From the IMG/VR virus record IMGVR_UViG_3300032116_015796, positions 16,257 to 80,256 of that record: a DNA stretch of 64,000 nt. One strand, written 5' to 3'. Positions 1,893 through 64,000 of the stretch are shown here, one piece after another. Positions within the stretch are counted from its first letter, which is position 1; each line of letters opens with the position of its first letter. Origin of the DNA: a virus. The translations under genes were made by a program, and so were the position numbers. Below the pieces are notes generated by a model. It worked only from the letters and a program-made list of their open reading frames with translations, was not told the origin of the DNA and did no database searches.

Positions 1893-1893
1893 T

Positions 1894-3067: not shown

Positions 3068-3654
3068 CACCAAATTTAATGGATTTACAAGAGCAATTAA
3101 AAAAGTTGCAAGATATGGTTAATAGCGAAGAGGAGATTGACTATGAAGATATAATGAGTGAACTTGGTTTAGATGTAAAACAATTAGAAGAAGACATGAA
3201 AAACTACACTCCTCAGTTACCACTTAAATTTTCTAAATTACATCCTGACGCAGTTTCTCCAAAATACAATTATCCAACCGATTCAGGTTTTGATTTACAT
3301 TCAGTTGAGGATTTGGAAATCCCTCCTTTTGGTAGAATCTTAGTCCCGACAGGTTTATCATTCGATATTAAAGATGGGTATGAAATTCAAGTTAGGTCTA
3401 AAAGTGGTCTATGTATTAAACAAGGACTAATGGTTCTTAATTCACCAGGAACTGTAGATAACGGGTATACAGGTGAAGTACAAGTAATTGTTTTTAACAC
3501 AAATAACCACAAGGTCTCGATTCCAAAAGGGATGAAAGTAGGGCAAGCAGTTCTTTGTCCTGTTGTAAATGGGAAGTGGGTTGAGTTAATCGAAAAAAAT
3601 AAAATCTCTGAAAAAGACAGAGGTAGTAATGGTTTTGGAAGTACAGGGATATGA
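3064..3654 (+). CDS. dut: dUTP diphosphatase with acidic N-terminal extension
   Basis: All five trimeric dUTPase motifs are visible in order: DSGFDLHS, RSKSGL, GTVDNGYTGEVQV, GQAVLCPV and RGSNGFGSTG (the P-loop-like fifth motif at the C-terminus). The enzyme hydrolyses dUTP to dUMP and limits uracil incorporation during phage replication. The protein is 196 residues, about 45-50 longer than the usual ~145. The extra part is an acidic, Leu-rich N-terminal helix (residues 1-50) that could mediate a protein contact. It overlaps genes on both sides by 4 nt. Confidence 0.95.
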   Translation: MTPNLMDLQEQLKKLQDMVNSEEEIDYEDIMSELGLDVKQLEEDMKNYTPQLPLKFSKLHPDAVSPKYNYPTDSGFDLHSVEDLEIPPFGRILVPTGLSFDIKDGYEIQVRSKSGLCIKQGLMVLNSPGTVDNGYTGEVQVIVFNTNNHKVSIPKGMKVGQAVLCPVVNGKWVELIEKNKISEKDRGSNGFGSTGI

Positions 3655-5144: not shown

Positions 5145-5146
5145 AT

Positions 5147-5776
5147 ATGGCTAATGGAATATACAAAATAACGGAAGACTTTGAAAAAGAACTGTCCGAT
5201 TACACAAAATCACCGTATGTTGTTACGGTAGATAATCAAAGTAATGCTTTATTTTTGGCGTTAATGTATGAGAAAGTAAGTGGTATGGAAATTGAAATCC
5301 CCTCTCGTACTTACCCCTCAGTACCATGTGAGATAATTCATGCAGGTGCAAAAGTTAAATTTAAACCTGTGGAAGGTAAAACAATTAAAGGGTCATATCA
5401 ATTGTATCCTACTAAAGTTTGGGATTCGGCTCTTTCTTTTACTTATGGAATGTACAAACCAAATACCCATATGTGTATTTCTTTTACAGGTCCTTATAAA
5501 CATTTTAAATTATCTAAAGGTGGAGCAATCTTAACTGACGACTATGACGCTTATTTATGGTTTAAAAGAGCGAGATACAGTGGCAGAAGAGAATGTTCTT
5601 ATCATGATGACCATTTTGATATGTTAGGATGGAATTTCTATATGATGCCTGAGTTAGCTGCGAGAGGAGTACTTTTGATGAAACAATTTTATAATGTTGA
5701 CGGAAGTCCTAAACATAATGAGGATTTAGAATTACCTTACCCTGATTTATCCAAGTTCGATGTCTATAAACAATAA
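5147..5776 (+). CDS. Minimal DegT/DnrJ/EryC1-like protein (PLP fold, shortened)
   Basis: The 209 residues resemble the large domain of sugar aminotransferases: VVTVDNQSNALFLAL (cofactor-binding start), EIPSRTYPSVPCEIIHAGAKVKF, VWDSALSF, and SFTGPYKHFKLSKGGAILTDD, which aligns with the PLP-lysine segment (SFHxTK...GGxxxT). Family members are usually about 370 residues; this one stops before the C-terminal domain, and the Lys is shifted by about one position. It may be a sugar aminotransferase, a dehydratase-like relative or a non-catalytic version. It sits between glycosyltransferase genes and overlaps the next one by 17 nt. Confidence 0.65.
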   Translation: MANGIYKITEDFEKELSDYTKSPYVVTVDNQSNALFLALMYEKVSGMEIEIPSRTYPSVPCEIIHAGAKVKFKPVEGKTIKGSYQLYPTKVWDSALSFTYGMYKPNTHMCISFTGPYKHFKLSKGGAILTDDYDAYLWFKRARYSGRRECSYHDDHFDMLGWNFYMMPELAARGVLLMKQFYNVDGSPKHNEDLELPYPDLSKFDVYKQ

Positions 5777-6467
5777 ACATATCTGTGTTTTAATATGTTT
5801 TAATAACTATGAACATATAGTTAAATGTTTCGAATCTATAAAAAATCTACCTTTAGATTTTTTTATAATAGAAAACCCATCTAAAAATTCCGATAAAATT
5901 CAAAAATATTTTAAAGAACAAAAATTAAAAGGGTATGTTAGATTCGAAGAAAATATTACAAATAACGCGGTTGATATAATAAGAGAAGATTACTCACCTT
6001 TATTTCAATCTTATGAATATATAACTTTTTCAGATTGTGATTTATTTACTGATTCCTCCTCTTCATTATTTTCCGAAATATATAGAATATTAGAATATGA
6101 AGAAGTTGGAGTTTGTTGTACATCATTATGTATGGATAACCTTCCTAATGTTCCTGACGCAAATGGTTGGATTCCTAACCCAATATCAATTCACGAAGAT
6201 TATATTAATGTAAATACAGGTGTTCATTTCATGACTATGAAACAAAAAAATTATTCATTATTATATGGGACAAAATTTAAAGACACCTTAATGGTTTCTT
6301 TAATTAGAAGTAAGAACCTAAAATGGGTTTCAACAAAAGAAAACAAATCAATTCATTTGACTTGGGATTTGTACTACCAAGGTAACGAGTACTATAATTT
6401 TAAAATTGAGCGTGGTTTAGAATCATTGTGGTCACATAACGAAACATCGGATTATATTATTTTATGA
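5760..6467 (+). CDS. GT-A-fold glycosyltransferase-like protein
   Basis: 235 residues. The start HICVLICFNNYEHIVKCFESIKNL is a typical GT2 beginning, and YITFSDCDLFTD carries a DxD-like metal site. The rest is less conserved, ending with an aromatic HLTWDLYYQGNEYYNFK segment. The start overlaps the previous gene, and its stop overlaps the next start by 4 nt. It is likely another transferase of the same glycan pathway. Confidence 0.65.
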   Translation: MSINNKHICVLICFNNYEHIVKCFESIKNLPLDFFIIENPSKNSDKIQKYFKEQKLKGYVRFEENITNNAVDIIREDYSPLFQSYEYITFSDCDLFTDSSSSLFSEIYRILEYEEVGVCCTSLCMDNLPNVPDANGWIPNPISIHEDYINVNTGVHFMTMKQKNYSLLYGTKFKDTLMVSLIRSKNLKWVSTKENKSIHLTWDLYYQGNEYYNFKIERGLESLWSHNETSDYIIL

Positions 6468-7039
6468 AAAGAGCGTTAATTGGTTTTGGTGGTCATGCGA
6501 GAGAAGTTATCGCTCAAATGAAAGTTAATTTACCTTGTTTTGTTGATGATTCTTTTTTAACTAAAGAAACCCTACCGTTATCTAGATTTAATCCAAATGA
6601 GTTTGAAATAATGGTTGCGATTTCAGACCCAAAAAAAAGAATGGAAATTGTAGGTCGATTACCAAAAGAAACTAAATATTTTACATTTATCCACCCTACC
6701 TCACTTATAATGTCTGAAGTTAAAATAGGTCACGGTTCTTTTATTGGGGCGTATTCAGTAATTACGACAAATATAACAATTGGTACTCACTGTATTTTAA
6801 ATCGAGGTAACCATATAGGACATGATTCAATAGTCGGAGATTTTTTTAGTGCAATGCCGTGTTCAGTTATTTCGGGTAATTGTTTAATTGGTGACAGAGT
6901 TTATTTCGGTACTAATTCATCCGTAAGAGAAAAAATTGAAGTATGTGATGATGTAACTATCGGTTTAAATTCAGGTGTGGTCAAACACATAACAGAAAGT
7001 GGGGTGTATGTAGGTGTCCCCGCAAAAAAAATAAAATGA
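6464..7039 (+). CDS. PglD/NeuD-like sugar O- or N-acyltransferase (left-handed beta-helix)
   Basis: 191 residues. The start MKRALIGFGGHAREV is the nucleotide-sugar-binding Rossmann start of PglD/NeuD proteins. From about residue 85 there are hexapeptide repeats (VKIGHGSFIGAYSVITTNITIG, IGDRVYFGTNSSV) ending in VGVPAKKIK. The family transfers acetyl groups from acetyl-CoA to amino sugars or sialic acid-type sugars. Together with the DegT-like gene two positions upstream it suggests synthesis of an acylated amino sugar. Confidence 0.85.
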   Translation: MKRALIGFGGHAREVIAQMKVNLPCFVDDSFLTKETLPLSRFNPNEFEIMVAISDPKKRMEIVGRLPKETKYFTFIHPTSLIMSEVKIGHGSFIGAYSVITTNITIGTHCILNRGNHIGHDSIVGDFFSAMPCSVISGNCLIGDRVYFGTNSSVREKIEVCDDVTIGLNSGVVKHITESGVYVGVPAKKIK

Positions 7040-7755
7040 TGAAGAATACAAAATTAGCAATTGTAATTGCAACATATCGTAGAGATGACGGTAAAAGTTT
7101 TGAATTTTTATACAGAACATTAGAAAGTATAAAAAAACAAACCTATAAAAATTATAAAATATTTTTAATAGGTGATAAATACGATAAACCCGAAGAAGTT
7201 AGTCGGGTAATAAAAGATTTGTCGTTGGATAAAATTTATTTTGAAAATTTACCTATTGCAAAAGAAAGAAGTAGATATACTGGTCATGTACTTTGGTCTT
7301 ACGGTGGAGTTAATGCAATTAATCATGGAGTAAAAATAGCTTTAAGTGAAGGTTTTGATTATGTGTGTCATTTAGACCACGATGATTGGTGGTACGAAAA
7401 CCATTTAGAGTTAATCAATAAATGTATTTCAGAAACAGGTTCGGAATGGGTTTGTACTAAATCCACATACCGAAACCCTTTTACATTTTTACCCCCAGTA
7501 GATACTAATGATGAATATGTTGATTTTCATCCTAGGTCATCAATTTTAATACACTCCTCAGTATGTATGAATTTCAAAAAAATCCCCTTATTATATCGGG
7601 ATATTTACGAAGAAACAGGTGTAGTAGGTTTACCAACTGACGCAGATTTGTGGGAAAGATGTAGACAATATATAATATCTAATAAATTAAAAAGTACATT
7701 AATAAATAAAATAACTTGCCGTCATGATGAAGAAGGATATGAAAGACTCAAATAA
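7036..7755 (+). CDS. GT2 family glycosyltransferase
   Basis: 239 residues. KLAIVIATYRRDDGKSFEFL and TLESIKKQTYKNYKIFLIGD form the GT2 nucleotide-binding start. VCHLDHDDWWYENHLEL carries the DxD-like metal motif with the family's aromatic follow-up. The 4-nt overlap with the acyltransferase gene and the 32-nt overlap with the next gene indicate coupling. Confidence 0.85.
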   Translation: MMKNTKLAIVIATYRRDDGKSFEFLYRTLESIKKQTYKNYKIFLIGDKYDKPEEVSRVIKDLSLDKIYFENLPIAKERSRYTGHVLWSYGGVNAINHGVKIALSEGFDYVCHLDHDDWWYENHLELINKCISETGSEWVCTKSTYRNPFTFLPPVDTNDEYVDFHPRSSILIHSSVCMNFKKIPLLYRDIYEETGVVGLPTDADLWERCRQYIISNKLKSTLINKITCRHDEEGYERLK

Positions 7756-8386
7756 AATTAACATAACTGAAGACTCTATTAATAGAGTAAACGAAATAAT
7801 TCAAAATATGGAAGGTAAATCCTTTCATAATCATTACCATATATTGTATGATATTATTACTTCATTAGGTAAGAAAAATCAAACCTATTTAGAAATTGGT
7901 GCTTACTGTGGTGGGTCGGCATCTTTAGTATCAACAAACGAAAATGTTTCAAAAGTTTACAGTATTGATATTGGACATCCAATACCTAAAGAAGTACCAA
8001 TTAAAAATGTTAATAAATTTAAACATTCTAATTGTGAATATGAATATTTTCATGGAAACTCTAGATTAAACAACACTATTGAAAAGGTTAAATCAAGTGT
8101 TCCTGAAATTGATGTTTTTTTTATTGACGGTGACCACTCATATAATGCGGTTATTGAAGATTTTAATAACTATAAAGATTTAGTGTCTAAAGGGGGTGTT
8201 ATTGTTTTTGATGATTATCACGATAAAATCCATAGTCCTGATGTATTTCATGCAGTTAATGATATTGTGAAAACACTTAATTTAGATGAATATGAAATTA
8301 TTGGTAGTTTAAACTATGATTTAATAAAGAAAACAAATTTCCCAAATATAGAATCAAGTAATGAGTTTATTTTAATTAAAAAATGA
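7724..8386 (+). CDS. Class I SAM-dependent methyltransferase (Methyltransf_24-like)
   Basis: 220 residues. YLEIGAYCGGSASLVS is the SAM-binding motif I, VYSIDIG motif II, and DVFFIDGDHSYNAVIEDF plus GGVIVFDDYHD are diagnostic of this methyltransferase group. These often occur in glycan clusters, where they O-methylate sugars. The start at 7724 overlaps the upstream gene by 32 nt; an internal ATG at 7739 is also possible. Confidence 0.8.
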   Translation: MMKKDMKDSNKINITEDSINRVNEIIQNMEGKSFHNHYHILYDIITSLGKKNQTYLEIGAYCGGSASLVSTNENVSKVYSIDIGHPIPKEVPIKNVNKFKHSNCEYEYFHGNSRLNNTIEKVKSSVPEIDVFFIDGDHSYNAVIEDFNNYKDLVSKGGVIVFDDYHDKIHSPDVFHAVNDIVKTLNLDEYEIIGSLNYDLIKKTNFPNIESSNEFILIKK

Positions 8387-9213
8387 AAAAAATAATAAAC
8401 TTTACGCCTACAGGAACTCAAACTAATCGACAAAATTCTTTAGCGCCTTTAACTCCTAATGAAATTATTGAAGAGGTTCATGAAGCGTATGAATTGGGTA
8501 TTACTCTAACTCATATTCATGCCAGAGACCCTATTACATTAGAGAATACTTACAATAAAAATGTATACAGAGATATTTTGGAGGGTATAAGGAAACATTG
8601 TCCTGACTTATGTGTTTGTGTTTCATTAACAGGTAGGTTATTTCCTGAATTTGAAAAGAGGTCTGAGGTTTTAGAGTTATACCCTGACATGGGGTCTTTA
8701 ACTATGTCGTCATTAAATTTTCCAAGAGGAGCCTCGGTTAATGAACCTGAAATGATATTGAAACTAATTACAAAAATGGAGGACTATGGTGTCACTCCTG
8801 AAATTGAATGTTTTGATACGGGTATGTTAAATTACACAAATTATTTAATAAGTAAATCAATTTTAAAAGGACCTCATTATATTAATGTAATACTTGGTAA
8901 TCTATATAACGCTCAAACAGATTTATCGACATTCTCATCAATTTATAATCATAAACCCAAAGACTCTTTAATGTGTTTGGGTGGGATTGGTAATCAACAA
9001 TTGAAATCAAATATTATGGGATTATTATATTTTGATGGTTTAAGAATTGGTCTTGAGGACAACCTATACTTTCGTGAAAAAGAAATTACAAAAAACATTA
9101 ACTTATTAAAAAGAATACATTTAATATCAGAAGAATTAAATTATCAAATAATGAACCATAAAGAATTCGGTGAGAATGGTTTTAAAAATAAAAAAAATGA
9201 AAGTATCAATTAA
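8383..9213 (+). CDS. BKACE family (DUF849) beta-keto acid cleavage enzyme
   Basis: 276 residues. INFTPTGTQTNRQNSLAPLTPNEII matches the BKACE start, THIHARDP (residues 43-50) provides the zinc-binding HxH, and CLGGIGNQQL is the conserved Gly-rich segment near the C-terminus. Known family members cleave beta-keto acids with acetyl-CoA using a zinc ion (TIM barrel). A phage copy is unexpected. Its position next to a WbqC-like gene suggests a step in making an unusual sugar substituent or acyl donor, which is inference. Confidence 0.8.
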   Translation: MKKIINFTPTGTQTNRQNSLAPLTPNEIIEEVHEAYELGITLTHIHARDPITLENTYNKNVYRDILEGIRKHCPDLCVCVSLTGRLFPEFEKRSEVLELYPDMGSLTMSSLNFPRGASVNEPEMILKLITKMEDYGVTPEIECFDTGMLNYTNYLISKSILKGPHYINVILGNLYNAQTDLSTFSSIYNHKPKDSLMCLGGIGNQQLKSNIMGLLYFDGLRIGLEDNLYFREKEITKNINLLKRIHLISEELNYQIMNHKEFGENGFKNKKNESIN

Positions 9214-9862
9214 TCAACCTTATTTTTTTCCTTACCTCCCATTTTATCAAATGGTTAATTATTCTGATGTTTTTGTGTCATTAGATAGTGTGAATTTTTG
9301 TAAAAAAAAATTCATTAATCGGAACGTTATCACCGATAACAATGGTAGAAAAATCAATTTCACACTACCAATAAGAAATCTATCTCAGAATAAAAAAATT
9401 AATCAAAGTGAAATATTTAATTTAAAAAAAACTAAAGATTCTTTTATTAAAAAATTGAAACTAACTTATGGTTTTAGGAAATCTAATTTAGAGGTTTTTG
9501 ATGTAGTTGATTCGTGTTTCACGTCAAATCTAATATCAGAAGTTTCAACAAATTCGATTAAAAACGTTTTTAATTACTTAGGAATTGAAAAATCAATTTT
9601 ATTGTCTTCAGAATCATTTAAGAGTTATGACGAATATAAAAAAGAAATCAAAATTTACGGAATTTGTCATGAATTAAATTGTACCGATTACATTAATTTA
9701 CCGAATGGTAATTTATTATATGATAAAGAAGATTTTACAAAAAAAGAAATCAAATTATCCTTTATTTCGAATGACCTAAACTATAATACATCTATTTTAG
9801 ATGTATTATTTAGGGAAGACAAACAACAAATAATAGGCAAACTAAACAATCACATTCAATAG
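9197..9862 (+). CDS. WbqC-like protein
   Basis: The start is ATG 9197 (MKVSINQPYFFPYLPFYQM), which is the typical WbqC start; an upstream in-frame ATG at 9170 would give a longer overlap with the BKACE gene. FVSLDSVNFCKKKFINRNVI is the second conserved block. The family occurs in O-antigen and sugar modification loci and is thought to act on dTDP-sugar derivatives. About 221 residues. Its coupling with BKACE upstream and an acyltransferase downstream suggests a three-step modification. Confidence 0.8.
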   Translation: MKVSINQPYFFPYLPFYQMVNYSDVFVSLDSVNFCKKKFINRNVITDNNGRKINFTLPIRNLSQNKKINQSEIFNLKKTKDSFIKKLKLTYGFRKSNLEVFDVVDSCFTSNLISEVSTNSIKNVFNYLGIEKSILLSSESFKSYDEYKKEIKIYGICHELNCTDYINLPNGNLLYDKEDFTKKEIKLSFISNDLNYNTSILDVLFREDKQQIIGKLNNHIQ

Positions 9863-10488
9863 TGAATACAGTAGTTTCAATAGGATTTACCGAATCCCAT
9901 TTATTAATGGTTTCTGATTTGTTATTTTCATTAAATCTAAATCCGAATATACTAATTTTTGATAACCAAAAAAGATTTAAATCAGAAAAAAACTTTATCT
10001 ACCATAAATACGATTTTATTGATACTTTAGAAAATCAAGATAATTTATTTTTTGGTTTTGCAAAACCGTTAGGTAAAAGTAAATTATTCCATTCTATAAA
10101 TATAGATTCAAAAAAATTCATAAACTTAATACATTCAAAAAGTGAAATATCAAAATACTCTGAATTAGGTATTGGAATAAGAATTGAACCTGGGACAGTT
10201 ATTGTGGCAAAAACTAAAATTGGTAATTTTGTTAATATAAATAGAGGTGTTAATATTGGTCACCATTGTAGTATAAGTGACTTTGTAACTATTAATCCAG
10301 GGTGTTCAATTGCAGGACATGTGACAATAGGAGAAAATACGGAAATATGTATTGGTACAACAATAATTGACGGTATTAATATTGGTAGTAACACTATAAT
10401 TGGTGCTGGTTCAGTAGTTACTAAAGATATCCCTGACAATGTTGTTGCTTATGGTAACCCTTGTAAAATAATCAGAAAAAATTTATAA
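9862..10488 (+). CDS. Second PglD/NeuD-like acyltransferase (hexapeptide repeats)
   Basis: The start is GTG at 9862, overlapping the stop of the WbqC gene (TAGTG). The C-terminal half from about residue 95 consists of hexapeptide repeats (IGIRIEPGTVIVAKTKIGNF, INPGCSIAGHVTIG) and ends GNPCKIIRKN, the usual end of sugar acyltransferases. The catalytic-type His is present in GVNIGHHCSI. The N-terminal ~90 residues are divergent from the first copy at 6464, so the two may use different substrates. Confidence 0.85.
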   Translation: MNTVVSIGFTESHLLMVSDLLFSLNLNPNILIFDNQKRFKSEKNFIYHKYDFIDTLENQDNLFFGFAKPLGKSKLFHSINIDSKKFINLIHSKSEISKYSELGIGIRIEPGTVIVAKTKIGNFVNINRGVNIGHHCSISDFVTINPGCSIAGHVTIGENTEICIGTTIIDGINIGSNTIIGAGSVVTKDIPDNVVAYGNPCKIIRKNL

Positions 10489-10490
10489 AA

Positions 10491-11114
10491 ATGTTACATA
10501 TAATAACACCCCTTTATCGATTTGAGAATTTAGAAACAACATACAATTCTATTTTAATGAATGAAGATATTACTTGGCACATATCAAAATCAAATCAACG
10601 AGAAGACATAGTATTAGATTTTATTAAAAACGATAACAGAGTTAAAGTGTACAATGTAAATTGTACCGATGAAGAAGCATTTAAAAAACGTCAACACGTT
10701 TTGGAAAAACTAGATTCAGGATATTTTTGTTTTTTAGATGACGATACTATATTCCATGAAAATATGTATATAAAGTATTTGGAATGTTTAGAAAACAATT
10801 TTATTGGTATGGTAATCGGACAACAAGTCATAAATGATAGACATCTTAGATTAACCGCAAGTATACCATTATATAGACATATCGATGTTGGTAATGTTTT
10901 AAGTCACACTAAATGTTTAAGTGAATGTAAATGGCCGTCAAGTCACATTTCAGGGGTTAATCAGAAGGATTTTCTTTTTTGGGAATCTGTCTATAATTTT
11001 TATAATAAAAAATGTATTTTATGGAATAAGCCAATTTCATATTACAATTTTTTAAATACCGAATCAAAAAGTATAGGAAAAAATAAACTTTTTATTGCAG
11101 GAAATATAAATTAA
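10491..11114 (+). CDS. GT2-like glycosyltransferase
   Basis: 207 residues. The start LHIITPLYRFENLETTYNSI and the motif GYFCFLDDDTIFHENMY (DDD metal site) are typical of short GT2 enzymes. CKWPSSHISGVNQKDFLFWE would contribute the acceptor side. It starts 2 nt after the acyltransferase stop. Confidence 0.75.
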   Translation: MLHIITPLYRFENLETTYNSILMNEDITWHISKSNQREDIVLDFIKNDNRVKVYNVNCTDEEAFKKRQHVLEKLDSGYFCFLDDDTIFHENMYIKYLECLENNFIGMVIGQQVINDRHLRLTASIPLYRHIDVGNVLSHTKCLSECKWPSSHISGVNQKDFLFWESVYNFYNKKCILWNKPISYYNFLNTESKSIGKNKLFIAGNIN

Positions 11115-11131
11115 TAAACTCAATTTGAATT

Positions 11132-11920
11132 GTGAAATATAACGATAGGATAGACATTGAAAGAATTGGGGTTACAGGTTCTTATTATTATAACATTAGT
11201 GATAACATTATATCCGCAAGAATCTTAAGTTCTTTTTGGTTAGTTATGGAAGACTCAAATGATGAATTTGTACCTCATTTAAAAAAAGATGGATTTTGGG
11301 AATCATGGGTATCTCTTTGGATTAGTCAGAATGTCTCTCCTGGTAGTATCTGTATTGATGGGGGAGCTAATTACGGGTATTACACCTTTCAATTATTACT
11401 TCATGGTTGTGAGGTATACTCAATAGAAGCCAATCCATTTTTAATACCGTTTTTGGAAAAATCTTTAAAATTAAACGGTAAATTACCTCTAACAATAATT
11501 AATTCCGCAATAACTGACGGGACTACCGATAAAATTGTTCTGAACATAACCAAATCCCCATTACATTCAAGTGTTTTAAATTTTAAAACTAGCGAATCAC
11601 AGGTTGAGGTGAATACAATCAGTCTACAAAGTTTTAAAGGAAAAAAAATAGATTTCATAAAATTAGATATCGAAGGTTGTGAACAACAAGTTCTCCCAGA
11701 TTTGTTTTTACTTCAAAATGAAAATCCTAACATGGTATGTTTAATAGAATGGGTTTACGATTCGTACCCAAATAAAAGTAGACAATTTTATGAGTATTTA
11801 ATAAACCATTTCTATGTAACATATATTGATTTTGATGGTAAAGAAAAAAATCTTGAATCTTATGAATTTATTGAAAATGAAACTTTAGATTTAAGAATGT
11901 ATGTACTCAGAAAAAAATAA
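11132..11920 (+). CDS. FkbM family SAM-dependent methyltransferase
   Basis: 262 residues from a GTG start at 11132. GSICIDGGANYGYYTFQLLL is motif I, VYSIEANPFLIPFLEKSL is the FkbM motif II block, and IDFIKLDIEGCEQQVL is the diagnostic KxDIEG segment. FkbM enzymes O-methylate sugars or polyketides. It is the second methyltransferase of this operon and likely caps or decorates the glycan. Confidence 0.9.
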   Translation: MKYNDRIDIERIGVTGSYYYNISDNIISARILSSFWLVMEDSNDEFVPHLKKDGFWESWVSLWISQNVSPGSICIDGGANYGYYTFQLLLHGCEVYSIEANPFLIPFLEKSLKLNGKLPLTIINSAITDGTTDKIVLNITKSPLHSSVLNFKTSESQVEVNTISLQSFKGKKIDFIKLDIEGCEQQVLPDLFLLQNENPNMVCLIEWVYDSYPNKSRQFYEYLINHFYVTYIDFDGKEKNLESYEFIENETLDLRMYVLRKK

Positions 11921-11931
11921 AAAAAAACAAT

Positions 11932-12660
11932 ATGACTAACAGAAAAAAAACCCCTTCATTAACTCAAGAACCAGAAAGAAAACTTTCTAAAAAAACATTA
12001 ATAACTGAGATAATAAAGAAGAAAACAAAAGAAAAATTTTTAACAATAAATCAAAAAAAATATTACGACACTTTAATCTCTAGTGAAATTACCGTTTGTT
12101 CAGGACCTGCGGGTGTTGGTAAAAGTTATATAACAATGAAAGCGGCGATTGATTTAATATCAGACCCGTCAACACCTTATGAAAAAATTATTATTGTAAG
12201 ACCTGCAGTTGAGGCTGAGGAAAAATTAGGGTCTTTACCTGGCAATGTCGAAGAAAAATTAGACCCGTACATTTTCCCTTCTTACTATTTGATGAATAAA
12301 ATAATTGGTAAAGAAGCAAGAGAAAAATTAAAAGATATTGATGTAATTGAGGTTTTTGCATTGGCATATATGAGAGGAATGAATATTGATAACTCAATAT
12401 TAATTTTTGAAGAGGGTCAAAACTCTTCCCCAAGTCAAATGAAATTACTACTAACCCGAATAGGTTTTAATAGTAAGTTTTTTATTTCAGGTGACGTTGA
12501 GCAATCCGACAAATATAAAAACAAAACTCAAAGTGGTTTATGGGATGCAATTGAAAAATTCAGAGATGATAATCAAGTTTCAGTATTTGAATTTAAAGAT
12601 AAAAAGGATATTGTAAGAAATCCTTTAATAACTAAGATTTTAGAAAAATATGAAGAATGA
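11932..12660 (+). CDS. phoH: PhoH-like ATPase
   Basis: 242 residues. The Walker A is CSGPAGVGKSYIT (about residue 57). IIVRPAVEAEEKLGSLPG is the family's signature, and the Walker B is ILIFEEGQNSS, with Glu-Gly where most PhoH proteins have DEAQN. FISGDVEQSD is the sensor region. PhoH-like ATPases are common in large phages and are linked to RNA handling, but their phage role is not settled. The gene is translationally coupled (4-nt overlap) to the next glycosyltransferase. Confidence 0.9.
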   Translation: MTNRKKTPSLTQEPERKLSKKTLITEIIKKKTKEKFLTINQKKYYDTLISSEITVCSGPAGVGKSYITMKAAIDLISDPSTPYEKIIIVRPAVEAEEKLGSLPGNVEEKLDPYIFPSYYLMNKIIGKEAREKLKDIDVIEVFALAYMRGMNIDNSILIFEEGQNSSPSQMKLLLTRIGFNSKFFISGDVEQSDKYKNKTQSGLWDAIEKFRDDNQVSVFEFKDKKDIVRNPLITKILEKYEE

Positions 12661-13781
12661 TAAAGTTTGTTAATAATGCAAGTGTTACTAAAGATGTATC
12701 GGGGTCAACTCGTGGAGTAAACATTTATGGGTTTGCAAATAAAATTTCGGGTTTAGGTCAAAATGCCAGACAAGTACTAAGAGCAATAAATAATACTGAC
12801 ATATCTTACAATTATTTAGATTTGTTTTCGGCATCTAAAGAGTTCAAATTTATTGAACCAACTATTAATCACAAATTCAAAACTAATCTATTTTGTTGTA
12901 ATCCTGATATTGATTTGACTGATTTTATTAATCTTAAAAAAAATAATCATAAAAAAAATATTGGTTTATGGGCATGGGAAGTAGAGGTTCTTCCTGAGTA
13001 TTGGATTAAATATTCAGAGCTTTTTGATGAAATATGGACAATTTCTAATTTTACTAAAAGTATTTTTGAAAAGGAATTACCAAATAAAATTATAAAATCT
13101 TTAAATATTCCAGGAGCACCATTTAAACTGTTGGACAAGTCCACATGTAAACAAACATTTGGAATTAATTCCAATACTTTTTTGTGTTCATTTGTTTTTG
13201 ATTCATTTAGTGATATAAATAGAAAAAATCCATTACATGTTATAGAGTCTTTTGAATCATCATTAGGGGATGAAGATTCTGTTTTATTAATAAAATGTCA
13301 AAACTTAAGTCAAGAAAACAGGGACATATTACTTAACTACCCTAAAACTAAAAAAGTTAAATTTATTTTTGAAACTTTTTCAGACGAGTTAATGAATCAT
13401 TTATTTTGTGCGACTGATTTATACATTTCTCTTCATAGAAGTGAGGGGTCAGGACTGACAATAATGGAGGCATTATCAGTAGGCACACCTTGTTTAGTGA
13501 CAAATTATGGTGGATGTTTAGATTTTTGTCTTCCTGAATTTTGTGAGTTAGTTGATTATAACTTTATAGAAATTACTGAAGATATTTGGTATAAAAATAA
13601 CTTTTTTAAAGACAAGGAAGTTTTTTGGGCAAACCCTATAGTAAATGACGCGTCTAATAAAATTAAAAAAATATTTGACAATTATGATGACTACCTTATT
13701 AAAACTAATGAATTAAAAAATTTCATAGAGAATAATTACAATTTAGAAAATATGTCTATTTTTTTAAAAAACAATTTATGA
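12657..13781 (+). CDS. GT4 family glycosyltransferase
   Basis: 374 residues of GT-B fold. The N-terminal domain has GVNIYGFANKISGLGQNARQV. The C-terminal domain contains LYISLHRSEGSGLTIMEALSVGTPCLVT, whose E-G-S-G-L-x-x-x-E is the GT4 EX7E nucleotide-sugar motif. The tryptophan-rich NIGLWAWEVEVLPEYWIKYS followed by FDEIWTISNF resembles mannosyl/glucosyltransferases of surface glycans. Confidence 0.9.
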   Translation: MIKFVNNASVTKDVSGSTRGVNIYGFANKISGLGQNARQVLRAINNTDISYNYLDLFSASKEFKFIEPTINHKFKTNLFCCNPDIDLTDFINLKKNNHKKNIGLWAWEVEVLPEYWIKYSELFDEIWTISNFTKSIFEKELPNKIIKSLNIPGAPFKLLDKSTCKQTFGINSNTFLCSFVFDSFSDINRKNPLHVIESFESSLGDEDSVLLIKCQNLSQENRDILLNYPKTKKVKFIFETFSDELMNHLFCATDLYISLHRSEGSGLTIMEALSVGTPCLVTNYGGCLDFCLPEFCELVDYNFIEITEDIWYKNNFFKDKEVFWANPIVNDASNKIKKIFDNYDDYLIKTNELKNFIENNYNLENMSIFLKNNL

Positions 13782-14380
13782 GGATTGGTATAGAAATTAA
13801 CGGTGTTCTTAGAAATACTTTGGGTAAAATTGAACAAACCTATAATAAATTTTACGTGGAAAAAACCGAAGGTATTGAAGATGAAGACGAGTTCAAATAT
13901 GAAGTTATTTCTGGATTGGATTCTTTAGATGTTAAATCTCATCTAAAATTTAGAGATGATGAGGAATTATTTTCTTTTTTATATGAAGAATTCCCGATGG
14001 AAATTTTTGGTCACGCTCAATCCACAGAGTACACCACGTTTAACGATTTAAATGAATTGTATTTTCAATTAAGAGATAAGCACGAGATGATAATAGTATC
14101 AGATGAGATTGGTAAATCAAAACCAGCTTCATTGTTTTTCTTATCTAAATTTGGTTGTCAATTTGAGAAAATTGTATTTTATAGTAACTACACTATAAAT
14201 GAAATGTGGAATCAAGTTGATATTTTAATTACATCAAATCCAAATTTATTAGAAAATCATCCTGAAGATAAAATGGTTATAAAATATAACACAATATATA
14301 ATAAACAAGTTGATTCTTTTCACTCAATTACGTCTATTAGAGAATTAGAATCTAAAATAAATGAAACAGTACTATGTTAA
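13778..14380 (+). CDS. HAD-like phosphatase fold, degenerate
   Basis: 200 residues. RIGIEINGVLRNTLGKIEQ looks like the HAD motif I (DxDGV), but both catalytic aspartates are replaced (E-I-N-G-V). MIIVSDEIGKSKPASLFFLSKFG resembles the motif II/III region of 5'-nucleotidase-like HADs, and VDILITSNP is in the place of motif IV. With the nucleophile missing it is probably not a normal phosphatase; a binding or structural role is possible. Confidence 0.5.
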   Translation: MRIGIEINGVLRNTLGKIEQTYNKFYVEKTEGIEDEDEFKYEVISGLDSLDVKSHLKFRDDEELFSFLYEEFPMEIFGHAQSTEYTTFNDLNELYFQLRDKHEMIIVSDEIGKSKPASLFFLSKFGCQFEKIVFYSNYTINEMWNQVDILITSNPNLLENHPEDKMVIKYNTIYNKQVDSFHSITSIRELESKINETVLC

Positions 14381-55425: not shown

Positions 55426-55478
55426 TTTGGTATTAATCTTTTTATTCGTATATTTGTAAAACAAAAGTTCTTTAACAT
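55426..55478 (+). promoter_or_regulatory. tmRNA promoter with boxA-like leader
   Basis: TTTG (55426-55429), 19-nt spacer, TATATTTG (55449-55456), then AGTTCTTTAACAT (55466-55478) immediately before the mature tmRNA. The latter resembles the E. coli rrn antitermination boxA (GCTCTTTAACA). Similar GTTCTTT boxes occur in the leaders of the minus-strand RNAs at 59.1-59.6 kb. Confidence 0.7.
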
Positions 55479-55480
55479 AT

Positions 55481-55871
55481 GGGGGTAACTCTGGAATTGA
55501 CTGGCATAGATAGTCATTCGGGGCACGTCAGGGACGAACTAACCCTGTCAAAATGGTTCAAAAACGATAAACGGCAACGTTATCAACAAACTTTCTGCGG
55601 TAGGTCTTATCCGTACTGAGGAAAGCGTAGCAGTAGCCTAATTGAATTAGGTTACTAAAGGGGTCGGCAGACATATAACCTTGCAACAGAAGTCGTAGTT
55701 GTGGTGGATTACTATTGAACCCTAAATCGAATGGTAACCATTGTTTGTTGATTTACGATGGTGAAGAACAAATCAACTATTTTTGGAACATTAGAAAATG
55801 TTAACCTAAGCGTGTAGTCCTTAATGGGTAATGTGAACAGGACTTGGGTTCGAGTCCCAATACCTCCACCA
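55481..55871 (+). ncRNA. ssrA: tmRNA (one-piece), with an unusually long tag
   Basis: The 5' end GGGGGTAACTCTGGAATTGA pairs with the 3' end TACCTCC followed by ACCA: G1-C72, G2-C71, G3-U70 (the alanine identity pair), G4-C, G5-C, U-A, A-U. The T-arm is TTGGG TTCGAGT CCCAA. CCA is encoded. The likely resume codon is GGC at 55573 after ATAAAC, giving a 22-residue tag that starts GNVINKLSAV and ends EESVAVA, with the stop TAA at 55639-55641. The usual Bacteroidetes tag is about 9 residues ending YALAA. The RNA is 391 nt and has its own promoter and terminator. It should rescue stalled ribosomes; the tag end differs from the known ALAA degron. Confidence 0.92.
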
Positions 55872-55875
55872 AATT

Positions 55876-55903
55876 AAAAACCCACCAATCGGTGGGTTTT
55901 TTT
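55876..55903. terminator. tmRNA terminator
   Basis: AAACCCACC, AATC loop, GGTGGGTTTTTTT directly after the CCA end; it also faces the convergent gene ending at 55902. Confidence 0.9.
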
Positions 55904-56465
55904 ATTTTAATAGTGTTATATGTCCGTAGGTTTGATGGAATCTATTATCTACATCTTTCCATTGTAAACAATAAACATAAACACCATCTTGACACATTTT
56001 ACCATTGTAAGTTCCATCCCATCCGTAATCCAAATTGTAGGACTCAAAAATAATCTGACCCCATCGGTTTACTATAAAAAAATGCTCATCAAAGTAATTG
56101 TAACCTTGTGGTTTCCATACATTATTAATTTCATCACCATCAGGTGTAAAAGTATTTGGAGCCCACATTGTGGTGTTAGGACATTCAACTAAATTTACAG
56201 TATAGTATACCATATTTGAGGGACATAAATCCTCTCCTTGTATCGCACTTAGTTGGTATGACCCGATAGAGTAATTACTCCAATTTACTGTCAAACTAGT
56301 TGTTGTAAAAATTTGACTGTCTAAAGACCAAGATATTAAACCTGATACTGTAGATTGAGTACTATAAGTAAAAGTTAAATCATTATCCTCACATTTCTCA
56401 ATAGTTTGTTGAGAGAACAGACTTGATGAACATACCAATGATAATATAAGAAATAGTTTCTTCAT
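55902..56465 (-). CDS. Secreted protein with T9SS type B (CHU_C) C-terminal domain
   Basis: 187 residues. The signal peptide is KKLFLILSLVCSSSLFSQ (2-19). Residues ~20-98 form an Ig-like unit. Residues ~100-187 (WAPNTFTPDGDEINNVWKPQ, IVNRWGQIIFESYNLDYGWD, GTYNGKMCQDGVYVYCLQWK, then GHITLLK) are the type B T9SS sorting domain: F-x-P-D-G-D-x-x-N, NRWG, W-D-G-x-x-N-G, G-V-Y-V-Y. Type B proteins are exported by the host T9SS and stay surface-bound. It is the last of three secreted-protein genes on the minus strand. Confidence 0.85.
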   Translation of the reverse strand: MKKLFLILSLVCSSSLFSQQTIEKCEDNDLTFTYSTQSTVSGLISWSLDSQIFTTTSLTVNWSNYSIGSYQLSAIQGEDLCPSNMVYYTVNLVECPNTTMWAPNTFTPDGDEINNVWKPQGYNYFDEHFFIVNRWGQIIFESYNLDYGWDGTYNGKMCQDGVYVYCLQWKDVDNRFHQTYGHITLLK

Positions 56466-57683: not shown

Positions 57684-57730
57684 ACAAAAAAAGGGAGAAT
57701 ATTGGTGGTTAGTCAATTTCTCCCTTTTAA
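57684..57730 (-). terminator. Terminator of the large noncoding RNA unit
   Basis: Minus strand AAAAGGGAGAA, 18-nt loop, TTCTCCCTTTTTTT. It lies where a transcript from the 59106-59137 promoter through the tRNA would end. Confidence 0.85.
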
Positions 57731-59099
57731 CCGTGGAACTTTCTCTGTCGGTAAGTCCAACCCGATACTTTTGTTAGTGAGACAAAAGTAACCATTGTCG
57801 TATGGTCGAGTTTGTACAATTTAAACGTCTATGTTTTTTATCATTTTTTCATATTTAAACACCTACTAAAATTTTTGTGGTTATCACAGAAATCCACATC
57901 TTAAAAAAAGGTGTCGTACAGTTTTCTGTCTATTGCCAGACAAAGTCATGTCGAGGACTCAAGCGGCGCTCTTATTTCCTTTACTTTTTTCCTTAAGGGT
58001 AAAAATGTGTGACAAAGAGTCTGAACCATCACGAATAAAACCCTGATTGTTCTGTTTTGTTCTCAGTTTAAACTCATGTTAGGTGTGATACAATTCTAAA
58101 GAACACCTATCGGAGTCACTTGTTGCGGGAGAAGGATTCGAACCTTCGACCTCAAGGTTATGAGCCTTGCGAGCTTCCACTGCTCTATCCCACTATATGG
58201 CTAAGGCTGAGATTATACCTTTTATTTGAGAACCTTTCGAGTCATTATTGCTTCTACTCTTATCCACTTCCTTTTGAGAAGTATTTCTCAGTGACGGTCT
58301 TTTAGGTTTACCACTCCTTGAGGTCTTGGTTACTCTCTTATTACTCAACTCTCTTCGAGGATGCCTCCCCAATTAATCCTTGCGGGATTAGAGGTCTTTG
58401 GTAAAACTACACTCGGACTTGGGGTCTTTGTGTGCAATGAACGGCTCATTACTATGTAGTCACCTTTCACCAAAACCTGGTAGACACTTTTCCTTAGATT
58501 TCATAATTAATAGGACTTAATTTTTAGTCATAAGTTTTGTGTCGTGGATGTATCGAAGTAGTGGTCTACCCTAAGCTCAGTCATCTTTTGAACAACTGAA
58601 TACTAAACTACTCCGTGAGATGTCCCCACCTCCATATTTCAAGTTTACTTCGTACCAAGACCTTGGTGGGTCTTTGATAAGGATAGTAGCGACACCACTC
58701 GTTCTCTATCTTACCTTTCGGTTTTAAGTCCACTTTCATATTGGAACCCGCAATTATGTAATTGGATAACTACACCTCTCACTTGATTCCTATGGGTTAT
58801 TCTTATTGGTGTTCCCACCTCAACCAAACAATCCACATTGCTTGGTCACCCAACCACTTTCCCTAAAGCGTCGCCCTCAGTACTGAAGGTCGGGTGATAT
58901 CCCACTTGTATACTCGAGTTCGGTTTCCCAAACCGCAGAATCATCAACACGGGTGATTCCACTTTATCCTACTTTCGTAGTTTATTTAACGACCATATAC
59001 GGCCGATTATCTTTTACAGGTTATCATCTCCCCGAAGGGGTACTTTCACCTGATGGATAATTCAATCTTTCAAAGAACTCTATCGGACGTTTCCGATTT
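57685..59099 (-). ncRNA. Large structured noncoding RNA with embedded tRNA (GOLLD/ROOL-like candidate)
   Basis: About 1.4 kb with no credible ORF on either strand, a host-type promoter at one end and a strong terminator at the other. Read on the minus strand it is packed with stable hairpins. Examples by + coordinates: UUCG loop in CCCC-TTCG-GGGG (59030-59040), GAAA loops in CTAC-GAAA-GTAG (58969-58980) and ACC-GAAA-GGT (58713-58722), GTGA in TTGG-GTGA-CCAA (58842-58853), GGAA in GGTG-GGAA-CACC (58808-58819), and stems at 58921-58935, 58374-58390 and 57769-57792. A CAU tRNA lies at 58123-58194. Large ornate phage RNAs of the GOLLD and ROOL classes are known beside tRNA genes, but I cannot confirm homology. 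Confidence 0.7.
58123..58194 (-). tRNA. tRNA with CAU anticodon (Met or lysidine-type Ile)
   Basis: Minus strand: acceptor AGTGGGA/TCCCGCA (first pair A-A mismatched, one G-U), D-stem GAGC/GCTC, anticodon stem CAAGG/CCTTG with loop CTCATAA, variable AGGTC, T-stem GAAGG/CCTTC with TTCGAAT loop. CCA is not encoded. The anticodon stem lacks the three G-C pairs of initiator tRNA, so an elongator Met or Ile2 tRNA is more likely. It lies inside the long noncoding transcript. Confidence 0.9.
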
Positions 59100-59158
59100 G
59101 TTTTACAAAGTTAAGAACAATTTTTTTAATTTCCAAATTTTTCTCAAACTTTTTTTTC
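59071..59158. repeat. Direct repeat of promoter plus leader (copy 1; copy 2 at 59285-59370)
   Basis: Both copies read, on the + strand, AAAGAACTC, ATCGGAC, TTTCCGATTTGTTTTACAAA, GTTAAGAA, then a T-rich stretch, CCAAATTTTTCT and CAACTTTTTTT or close variants. The duplication covers the boxA-like site, the 5' hairpin and both promoter boxes. Confidence 0.75.
59106..59137 (-). promoter_or_regulatory. Host-type promoter of the large RNA
   Basis: Minus strand TTTG (59137-59134), 20-nt spacer, TAACTTTG (59113-59106). The transcript would begin near 59099 with AAAACAAATCGGAAACGTCC, which folds ATCGGA-AACG-TCCGAT, followed by the boxA-like GAGTTCTTTGAAA. Confidence 0.8.
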
Positions 59159-59159
59159 G

Positions 59160-59312
59160 GTTATTATAACTGTTGCGGTAACATGTCTCATTTACACTTT
59201 AAATGCGAAGGATTCCCGTAGTCACTTTCCTCACATACAACAGTAGCCCTACGGACCTAGACTGTTTCTATAACCAATTTTTTTAAAGAACTCATCGGAC
59301 ATTTCCGATTTG
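59160..59312 (-). ncRNA. Second, small structured RNA with the same leader
   Basis: The minus-strand transcript from the 59318 promoter begins AAAACAAATCGGAAATGTCC, the same 5' hairpin as the large RNA (ATCGGA-AATG-TCCGAT), then GAGTTCTTTAAAA. The body (59162-59278) has GGTTAT/ATAACC closing ends, CTGTTG/CAACAG, CCGTAG/CTACGG and CATTTA/TAAATG pairings, with no ORF. It has no own terminator, so it may read through into the large RNA. Not recognised. Confidence 0.5.
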
Positions 59313-59317
59313 TTTTA

Positions 59318-59349
59318 CAAAGTTAAGAAGAACTTTTTAATTTTCCAAA
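59318..59349 (-). promoter_or_regulatory. Host-type promoter, duplicated copy
   Basis: Minus strand TTTG (59349-59346), 20-nt spacer, TAACTTTG (59325-59318). Promoter, leader hairpin and boxA-like site form a direct repeat of 59071-59158. Confidence 0.75.
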
Positions 59350-59366: not shown

Positions 59367-59510
59367 TTAAGATACTACGTATACATCGTCAGTACCGTGA
59401 AATTTAGCTCTTGCCATTGCAAGAACGGCACTACAAGTGTAATACTTCACACCATCATTCCCATAGTAGTAGAACAAAGGTTCGTCAATTACTTGTGTTT
59501 CGTTACTCAT
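59367..59510 (-). CDS. 47-residue hypothetical protein
   Basis: Minus strand ATG 59510 to TAA 59367. The protein begins MSNETQVIDEPLFYYYGNDG and ends GTDDVYVVS. It includes KYYTCSAVLAMARAKFHG, a compact beta-helix look. It has its own host-type promoter and a boxA-like leader site, and it heads the tandem noncoding RNA units. No family recognised; codon usage and the clear promoter make it credible. Confidence 0.6.
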   Translation of the reverse strand: MSNETQVIDEPLFYYYGNDGVKYYTCSAVLAMARAKFHGTDDVYVVS

Positions 59511-59693: not shown

Positions 59694-59855
59694 ATGAAAA
59701 AAGTAACATTAGCATTTTTGATTGCAACAGTAGCTTTGATTAGTTCATGTGGGTCTAACGAGACTAAAACTGAAACTCAACCAACTGACAGTACATTAAC
59801 CGACACAATAGTTGTGGTAGATACTGTTAAAGTTGACACTGTAAAAACAAAATAA
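59694..59855 (+). CDS. Small lipoprotein
   Basis: 53 residues: KKVTLAFLIATVALISSC then GSNETKTETQPTDST and a polar end of alternating V-D-T (VVVDTVKVDTVKTK). L-I-S-S-C is a lipobox, so the Cys would be acylated and the 35-residue tail exposed. CTATTTATTGG lies ~30 nt upstream, resembling the late motif. It is next to peptidoglycan hydrolase genes, so a spanin-like or superinfection-exclusion role is possible; nothing proves either. Confidence 0.75.
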   Translation: MKKVTLAFLIATVALISSCGSNETKTETQPTDSTLTDTIVVVDTVKVDTVKTK

Positions 59856-61903: not shown

Positions 61904-61933
61904 AAAAAAAGTGTGACAAATGGTCACACTTTT
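61904..61933 (-). terminator. Intrinsic terminator
   Basis: Minus strand AAAAGTGTGAC, CATTT loop, GTCACACTTTTTTT. It ends the Rnl1-like ligase gene. Confidence 0.9.
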
Positions 61934-62990
61934 AAAGTTTTCTAAATTCAGGTTTTAACATTTTCCATATTATTTGGTCATATGGTTTTCTATCCCACAT
62001 TGCAAACATTACAGGTCTATAAGGCGGATGACAATTTTTCATCACATGTTCAGCAAACTGTTTTTTTGTAGGCTCAACTTCTATGTCATTATATTTCCCA
62101 TATCGGAAATAATCATGAGATTTACCACAATATTCTGAAACTTGATAAAAAGCATATCTTAAACTCTTCTCATACTCTTTTATTTTTTTATAGAACTCGT
62201 CAGGAACATCTTTTAATAAATTTTCCATTTTTCCGCCAGTACTCAAAACCTCCCAAACTGAAGTTGTAGATAGATTAGTCATTATTTTATGGAGACGTAG
62301 ATATTCTTCACCTTTTATTTTCATTCGGTCTCCATTAGAAAATTTGACGACATAACCTTCTTTATTATCAGGTATTGCTTGTTTCAAATATTGATAGTCT
62401 TTGAATTTATCAAACCGTTGTACAACTTTAAATCCTAAGTTGGATATTAAATTTTTAAACCTTATATCCTCACCCTCGTCGTATAAGTTTACTTCATAAC
62501 CTGTTTTAGTTTCTATCATACCCAATAGAACCAAATCCTCAAAATCGTATTGACAAACTATTCTGTTTTCTTGATATATTATCTCAAACAGATAAGTGTA
62601 GTTTTTATGTAAACTATCATACTTATAACTTTTTAACATATCAGAACCTTTTATTGATTGGTCTGAAGTAAATGACCCTCTTGTTGCAAATACCCACTCA
62701 CCACCATAATAAAAAAGTATCCCCAAAGAACCATCCATTTTTTCAAAAACTTCAAATTCATCAGTAGAAGTATGTTTTTTTTCTTCTAAATTAAAGAATT
62801 TTTTAAATGGTCGAGCAACCACATTACCTTTGTCATCAGTTACTAAACCTCTAGCTTGTAATGTTATTTCATCCCACAATCCTTCGTATTGAACTTTTTC
62901 AGAATAATTCCATATAGTCAAAGGAAGAGTTGGGTGTACTTGTTTGTACACCAACCCTTCATTATGATATTTTTCTAAAACTTCTAACAT
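61932..62990 (-). CDS. RNA ligase, T4 Rnl1-like
   Basis: About 352 residues from ATG 62990; the in-frame TTG at 63005 lies inside the promoter. LQARGLVTDDKGNVVARPFK is the conserved upstream block. FEVFEKMDGSLGILFYYGGE contains the nucleotidyl Lys (K-M-D-G-S). IIYQENRIVCQYD, KEGYVVKFSNGDRMKIKGEE (motifs IV and V) follow. It seals RNA 5'-phosphate and 3'-OH ends and typically repairs tRNAs cut by host anticodon nucleases. A host-type promoter lies just before it. Confidence 0.9.
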   Translation of the reverse strand: MLEVLEKYHNEGLVYKQVHPTLPLTIWNYSEKVQYEGLWDEITLQARGLVTDDKGNVVARPFKKFFNLEEKKHTSTDEFEVFEKMDGSLGILFYYGGEWVFATRGSFTSDQSIKGSDMLKSYKYDSLHKNYTYLFEIIYQENRIVCQYDFEDLVLLGMIETKTGYEVNLYDEGEDIRFKNLISNLGFKVVQRFDKFKDYQYLKQAIPDNKEGYVVKFSNGDRMKIKGEEYLRLHKIMTNLSTTSVWEVLSTGGKMENLLKDVPDEFYKKIKEYEKSLRYAFYQVSEYCGKSHDYFRYGKYNDIEVEPTKKQFAEHVMKNCHPPYRPVMFAMWDRKPYDQIIWKMLKPEFRKL

Positions 62991-62994
62991 GTTG

Positions 62995-63020
62995 CAAATA
63001 TACAACTATTTTTCGTTCAA
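62995..63020 (-). promoter_or_regulatory. Host-type -7 element, near-leaderless
   Basis: Minus strand TATATTTG (63002-62995) lies 4 nt before the ATG at 62990, so the transcript would start at the start codon. A TTG about 15 nt upstream is a weak -33; the spacing is shorter than at the other promoters. Confidence 0.5.
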
Positions 63021-64000
63021 TAAAAATTTATTACTGATTGCCTTGAAACTAACAGTTCTATCGTAAGACCTAACAACTACACCTTCTCTATCAAAGTTAG
63101 AGTTCAACTCGGATTTATTATCCGCATATTCTAACATACCATCAATAGTTTTAGGTAACAAGAAATCGTAATCCAAAATAGGAACTGTTTTTAATCCCAT
63201 TTTTTGTACCAACTCAACAAACTCTAAGAACGAAATGTTTTCTTGGGTATCGATGTTAAATCCGTTGAAAAATCTAACTGTTTGTCCTTTGATTTTGTAA
63301 GGGTTTCCTTGGATTCCTTCACCAATTAACTCTCCTTGTAAACAAATATTAAATTCAACATTGCTCATCAATTTCTCTAAATTCAATTCACGAGCAACTT
63401 TCCAGAAAGTATTTCCTTCAGTTTCCAATAACTCCAAATTACGAGAACAAACTCCAAACACACCATCTTTTAAGAAAAATGTTGATGAAGAACCATCCAA
63501 TTTTTCAGTTACATAAAACTTATGTTTTGAAGTCACTTGGTATTCTTGATATTCTTTTGCCAAGTTTTGAACTCTTTCTTCATCAGTTTTACGGATGAAA
63601 GACGGGAACAAACCTTTTACCTTACCAGCTAATTCTGCGGGAACTGGTGGTTCGTATTTAACAATACCCAATACTTCAGTAACATCTTGTCCTTCATGGA
63701 ACGCACCAAAAGGTAAAATGTGGATTGGTAAAATCAAACCCTGAGATAATTGACCTCTTAATCTAATTGTCTTTAAACGGAATCCTTCTTGGTCTCCCAT
63801 TTTTTTATATGAACTCTTTCTCAAGAATTCAAATTCTTCCCTGATTGGTAAAAAAGAATCTACCTCACAGTAAACAACCAAGTCACCAACCTTATGGTTA
63901 ACATCTTTTGCAACGACAACTTTCCATCCATCAATTGTTGCTAACTCAATTTTATCCGCACCTTCAATTGGGGATAAATCACTAATTTTTCGTATGCTCG
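63006..64000 (-). CDS. RNA ligase of the DRB0094/Rnl2-related type, 5' end outside window
   Basis: The frame stays open to the window edge on the minus strand: upstream of the TTG at 63881 it reads ISDLSPIEGADKIELATIDG, WKVVVAKDVNHKVGD, the OB-like N-terminal domain of this ligase family, so the gene is partial here. FYVTEKLDGSSSTFFLKDGV has the nucleotidyl Lys (K-L-D-G-S-S). CLQGELIGEG, VRFFNGFNID, REGVVVRS and SFKAISNKFL are motifs III to V. It is adjacent to the Rnl1-like gene, giving two RNA ligases in tandem. Confidence 0.9.
   Translation of the reverse strand, partial: SIRKISDLSPIEGADKIELATIDGWKVVVAKDVNHKVGDLVVYCEVDSFLPIREEFEFLRKSSYKKMGDQEGFRLKTIRLRGQLSQGLILPIHILPFGAFHEGQDVTEVLGIVKYEPPVPAELAGKVKGLFPSFIRKTDEERVQNLAKEYQEYQVTSKHKFYVTEKLDGSSSTFFLKDGVFGVCSRNLELLETEGNTFWKVARELNLEKLMSNVEFNICLQGELIGEGIQGNPYKIKGQTVRFFNGFNIDTQENISFLEFVELVQKMGLKTVPILDYDFLLPKTIDGMLEYADNKSELNSNFDREGVVVRSYDRTVSFKAISNKFLLNEK

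Follow-up and report, generated by a model that had tools for sequence, protein, structure and literature searches.

The minus strand of a Bacteroidota phage encodes an RNA of the GOLLD family, about 875 nucleotides long, that is preceded by a promoter, a hairpin and a boxA-like motif in the order known from host ribosomal RNA leaders. We put this joint reading, a GOLLD RNA behind an rRNA-type leader, at a probability of roughly 0.8 from the sequence, and the GOLLD identity taken by itself is practically certain. The core RNA belongs to a named family, found here in a new phage clade; the rRNA-type leader and an accompanying small RNA have, to the extent of our searches, not been described before. 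The RNA lies in the window, the whole 64,000-nucleotide stretch analysed here, which is part of a virus record of 80.3 kb encoding a T4-like portal, prohead protease, major head protein and terminase. An initial assignment to a Bacteroidetes phage is backed by this capsid and packaging set, and both the TTG/TAnnTTTG promoters and the following gene point to a Bacteroidota host:

55902-56465, minus strand: protein with a CHU_C type IX secretion domain and a signal-peptide-like N-terminus, as if exported by the host

Three further features were seen in the window. By eye from the translations, positions 672-14380 (plus strand) hold a run of sugar-related genes resembling glycosyltransferases, cytidylyltransferases, acyltransferases and methyltransferases. 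Two adjacent RNA ligase genes, one of RNA_lig_T4_1 type and one an RNA_ligase with a PHA02142 OB domain, occupy 61932-63881 (minus strand), ~2.5 kb upstream of the GOLLD unit, and might serve in tRNA repair. A 53-aa lipoprotein-like ORF (MKKVTLAFLIATVALISSCGSN...) lies upstream of the GOLLD unit on the opposite strand (59694-59855, plus strand).

The first-pass annotation had described a single ornate noncoding RNA of ~1.4 kb with an embedded tRNA, offered GOLLD, ROOL or a new class as its identity, and proposed comparison with the two Rfam models and a search for covariation in homologs. Indeed, the Rfam GOLLD model (RF02032) matched positions 58615-58204 of the minus strand over its full length (model 1-416) with 312.9 bits (E 1e-88), about twice the curated cut-off of 150 bits, while the ROOL model gave no match even at E<=10. 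The layout that emerged is not one ornate RNA but a leader, two GOLLD domains, a tRNA and a 3' tail. The GOLLD domains are:

58616-59078, minus strand: GOLLD 5' domain, outside the Rfam model, with covariation in alignment A1
58204-58615, minus strand: GOLLD 3' domain, matching RF02032 model positions 1-416, with covariation in alignment A3

That the 5' domain falls outside the Rfam model could point to ROOL, likewise a giant caged phage RNA often found near tRNAs, or to a giant phage RNA of a new class; 5' domains are known to vary among GOLLDs (PMC12286853). Against either alternative stand the full-length match, which refutes a new class for the core, the lack of any ROOL match at that threshold and the retention of GOLLD interface pairs (see below), and we consider the chance that the RNA is something other than GOLLD to be very slight.

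Homologs were collected with an exact pattern for the 3' domain, which retrieved 74 further viral loci (75 with the window); those of sufficient length formed 34 clusters at 95% identity. The GOLLD 3' domain is present in all 74, and in 73 of them the match to the window extends upstream past the Rfam model, the sole exception (L074) being a contig that begins within the 3' domain. The clade's pattern had no matches in GTDB contigs, and RF02032 searched with strict filters had none in 148 Bacteroidota genomes, a result that does not prove absence. Of two patterns written for other GOLLDs, one returned nothing and the other just 3 matches.

Both domains are supported by covariation. For the 5' domain (A1), 65 of 98 predicted pairs show compensatory changes, 97.8% of alignment cells are paired, and the covariation score is 0.489 as against 0.220 in shuffled and 0.06-0.11 in slid alignments. 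For the 3' domain (A3), 53 of 83 pairs are compensated; with the B7 contact described below included, the 85 pairs score 0.457 versus 0.200 after shuffling, with 98.5% of cells paired. None of 500 shuffles reached the observed score in either domain. Since both domains covary in homologs, we conclude that the GOLLD RNA spans ~875 nt, from 59078 to 58204. GAAA loops are conserved in the clade's 5' domain alignment, and one of them may correspond to L11a, the conserved GAAA loop in the 5' domain of the env-38 GOLLD.

The same alignments bear on whether the region is a decayed coding sequence or a random AT-rich spacer, a reading to which a few ORFs of 40-59 aa might lend some colour. From promoter to terminator, the minus strand holds no protein gene, only chance ORFs of up to 59 aa; the initial description had been of a strand without ORFs. 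The ~98% of cells paired, the hundreds of compensatory changes and the frame-breaking indels across the 34 clusters leave this explanation a negligible probability. The impression that hairpins are denser than chance was also borne out: the segment 58195-59099 reaches a folding energy of -257.5 kcal/mol (z -3.2), and not one of 20 shuffles folded as well.

The closest point of reference is the known GOLLD family with the env-38 RNA, whose 833 nt are about the size of the window's RNA and which was solved by cryo-EM as a 14-mer nanocage (PMC12286853). Common features are a 5' and a 3' domain, a variable linker within the 3' domain, phage origin and a nearby tRNA; the window's GOLLD differs in having its tRNA just 3' of the RNA rather than in the linker, and in having its own rRNA-type leader. 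Within that cage, loop L20 makes a kissing contact with J13/15 of an adjacent subunit (bridge B7) and loop L21a self-pairs across both halves (bridge B8) (PMC12286853). Located by alignment position rather than from coordinates, the corresponding elements of the window are:

58416-58426, minus strand: P20 hairpin, whose loop nucleotide C58422 pairs with G58492 of J13/15 (bridge B7 of the 14-mer cage)
58379-58384, minus strand: L21a loop CGCAAG with a self-complementary GC (bridge B8)

Of the 34 clusters, 24 have C-G and 10 have G-C at L20 x J13/15, without exception; no other column covaries as strongly with that position, and the tree requires three independent switches. The L21a dinucleotide is GC in 26 clusters, CG in 7 and AU in 1, self-complementary every time. 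Both contact signatures of env-38 are thus kept, so quaternary assembly is probably under selection in these phages too.

Downstream of the GOLLD RNA, we found:

58122-58194, minus strand: tRNA-Met(CAU), called by ARAGORN and Rfam RF00005, beginning 10 nt past the GOLLD 3' end
57686-57931, minus strand: conserved element of the 3' tail, with an intrinsic terminator at its end
about 57728-57686, minus strand: terminator, a AAAAGGGAGAAAUUG...CAAUAUUCUCCCUUUU stem with a T-run

The CAU tRNA and the strong terminator (first placed at 57684-57730) were correctly recognized at the outset; the tRNA sits just 3' of the GOLLD RNA and outside it, not embedded. At 17 loci, including those of Acinetobacter phages (with tRNA-Asp), a tRNA follows the last conserved GOLLD motif by 11-22 nt, a spacing that is tight and not exactly fixed as we had considered; other relatives have tRNA-Met upstream of GOLLD or no tRNA. 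A tRNA within the GOLLD linker was also sought and occurs in no locus of the clade. The ~430-nt tail after the tRNA is stably folded (z -3.0), and part of it is conserved among relatives, again with compensatory changes; its 3' element, aligned in 8 sequences including the window at ~68-70% identity, has 33 pairs, 18 of them compensated.

Upstream of the GOLLD RNA lies its leader:

59106-59137, minus strand: GOLLD promoter of Bacteroidota housekeeping type, TTTGG at 59137-59133 and TAACTTTG at 59113-59106, aligned in relatives
59082-59097, minus strand: leader hairpin AUCGGA-aacg-UCCGAU, at the boxB position of rrn leaders
59069-59078, minus strand: boxA-like GTTCTTTGAA, the invariant start of the GOLLD RNA, as in Bacteroidota 16S leaders

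The promoter had been recognized from the start as a consensus host-type element, and the sequence agrees: TANNTTTGTAAAA occurs 4 times in the 64 kb against 0.66 expected, a count that none of 100 shuffles reached. Its four sites precede the tmRNA, GOLLD, the small RNA and a 47-aa ORF, and GTTCTTTRA follows each. The last of these is:

59367-59510, minus strand: 47-aa ORF, with a promoter (59581-59569) and GTTCTTTGAA (59553-59544) upstream

A similar small protein occupies the same position in one relative (L010). Across the clade, GTTCTTT(G/A)A opens GOLLD in 34/34 clusters, with the promoter and a compensated hairpin before it in most; letter changes in the hairpin stem are compensated among relatives (TCGG/CCGA, CAGG/CCTG and others). 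The divergent relatives L211, L212 and LR745206 (a 634-kb phage) have the same motif, and L211 and LR745206 retain the hairpin with a different sequence. In 53 phage loci totalling 516 kb, GTTCTTTRA occurs 121 times against ~22 expected and precedes GOLLD 35 times, the small RNA 14 times, the tmRNA 6 times and a tRNA 6 times. We rejected boxA as a universal GOLLD feature, since Acinetobacter phage Herod and LR756502, whose GOLLDs lie inside tRNA arrays, have no such motif beside the GOLLD start; it is thus not a general trait of the family.

Four relatives (L055, L027, L010 and L028) carry 3-4 tandem TTG/TAnnTTTG promoters upstream of GOLLD. Several of these are followed by a short hairpin RNA, and the types TTGTAAAA..TGGTTTCCT and GGTGTGAACCYGAC..GTAGCA recur, resembling more small RNA families. 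The same region of L028 also holds a tRNA-like sequence that has a promoter of its own and a GTTCTTTGAATTAAAAA leader.

We compared the phage leader with those of 119 Bacteroidota-type 16S genes, 112 of which had enough upstream sequence; the comparison spans the phylum Bacteroidota and may not include the phage's exact host. GTTC[TA]TTGA lies within 260 nt upstream of 16S in 63 of the 112 leaders versus 2.0% of blocks from the same contigs, a ~28-fold enrichment, and ~44% of the leaders lack the motif as written. The host motif often extends to ...ATTGA, as in the phages. Immediately before the motif, 48% of host and 41% of phage leaders have a hairpin with 6 bp or more, compared with 16% of random 40-mers. 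Phage and host leaders thus share a housekeeping promoter, a hairpin and GTTC[TA]TTGA in the same order. By contrast, the phage version drives a noncoding phage RNA, is associated with tandem promoters in some relatives, and has its motif also at tmRNA, tRNA and small RNA genes. A lambda nut site likewise combines boxA with a hairpin and recruits Nus factors, but the phage leader runs from hairpin to boxA, as rrn leaders do. In E. coli, the rrn elements run boxB-boxA-boxC, and boxA is both required and enough for antitermination (PMC10250234); boxA can also relieve Rho-dependent termination in a long noncoding leader (PMC4807359). Because the motif stands at the place and in the order of rrn boxB-boxA, we infer that these phages borrow the rRNA antitermination machinery of their host. 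Literature searches on GTTCTTTGA and on boxA in Bacteroidetes found nothing on the phage leader, nor did we find an account of how phages make GOLLD.

Could GTTCTTTGAA instead serve merely as the 5' strand of the 5' domain's closing helix in an ordinary GOLLD, its likeness to boxA a coincidence? In 34/34 sequences its CUUUG can pair with the YGAAG found ~450 nt further on, where the 5' domain ends, so structure alone could preserve part of the motif in GOLLD, and in some relatives (L009, L045) the promoter or hairpin is missing beside it. However, several invariant letters fall outside the predicted helix, and the tmRNA, small RNA and tRNAs carry the same leader motif without such a partner, so this pairing cannot explain the copies before the tmRNA and small RNA. 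Together with the enrichment before host 16S genes, often with a hairpin upstream, this makes the helix a distinctly improbable explanation of the motif, and we favour an rRNA-type leader.

One of these further copies belongs to a second RNA, just upstream of GOLLD:

59313-59325, minus strand: -7 region of the small RNA promoter
59283-59309, minus strand: second copy of the leader, with a hairpin (59309-59294) and boxA-like GTTCTTTAA (59291-59283), before the small RNA
59158-59276, minus strand: undescribed structured small RNA of ~120 nt, with covariation (alignment A6)

Rfam gave it no match beyond chance. In A6, built from 14 versions, 11 of 35 pairs are compensated, mainly in helices 1 and 5; folded as a single sequence, it shows no unusual stability (z -1.4). 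Of 2.9 million viral contigs scanned, 25 carry it, with GOLLD downstream on the same strand in 24, a count that includes a contig (L084) ending before the GOLLD 3' domain. The contigs come from related phages, so these are not 24 independent events. The exception, L076, has the small RNA, a tRNA and the 3' element and no GOLLD in 40.8 kb; within its positions 1-2334, the small RNA is followed by a tRNA-like sequence and then by the 3' tail element, an arrangement that might reflect loss of GOLLD or separate use of the small RNA. A pairing between CUACGGG of the small RNA and CCCGUAG of GOLLD was considered and dropped, since it is broken in most phages with the small RNA (CCCAUAG). The small RNA might be a mere leader or 5' UTR of GOLLD, as the absence of a promoter between them in L053 and L087 would allow; we find this rather unlikely, as GOLLD has its own promoter after the small RNA in the window and most relatives and L076 has the small RNA without GOLLD.

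The leader type recurs on the other strand, before a tmRNA:

55449-55475, plus strand: tmRNA promoter TATATTTGTAAAA and boxA-like GTTCTTTAACA
55481-55871, plus strand: phage tmRNA (ARAGORN; Rfam RF00023, 105.2 bits), sharing the leader type

The boxA-like element directly precedes the tmRNA in four phages, the window's and L014, L053 and L059, whose tmRNAs also lie near GOLLD. The tag encoded by the window's tmRNA reads GNVINKLSAVGLIRTEESVAVA.

From these data, GOLLD would be expressed as an RNA gene of its own, organised like an rRNA operon of the host, in a T4-like Bacteroidota phage. Host RNA polymerase would start at the housekeeping promoter and read through the hairpin and boxA, both present in the sequence. 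NusB/S10 and the rRNA antitermination complex may then load onto boxA, keep Rho off the untranslated ~1.4-kb transcript and perhaps aid folding; the antitermination complex has been proposed to help 16S rRNA fold. Cleavage by RNase P at the tRNA 10 nt downstream would free the tRNA and give GOLLD a defined 3' end. The ~875-nt RNA would fold into its 5' and 3' domains, as the covariation indicates, and the kept interface pairs suggest that it assembles into a homo-oligomeric cage, probably a 14-mer. The phage may thereby rely on the rRNA antitermination complex of its host for producing, and perhaps also folding, GOLLD. In its full form, we picture an 'artificial rRNA operon' in which a copied host leader, made up of strong promoters that are in tandem in some relatives, a boxB-like hairpin and boxA, enlists the ribosomal antitermination and folding complex to make and fold a giant cage RNA, alongside a dedicated small RNA that is its partner or cargo, a proposal we hold tentatively and at somewhat less than even odds. 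Prompted by the tRNA, tmRNA and RNA ligases encoded nearby, we also considered the cage as a late-infection compartment that holds or shields translation-related RNA; this role is weakly held and seems doubtful. A point against the reading as a whole is that phage production in L. brevis reportedly did not need GOLLD (PMC7567579).

If GOLLD is made through ribosomal antitermination, its expression and folding would become testable by simple NusB/boxA experiments. The small RNA, as the near-constant companion of GOLLD in this clade, is a first candidate for a partner or cargo of the RNA. That intermolecular contacts covary in a separate set of phages makes a stronger argument for the GOLLD cage being biologically real.
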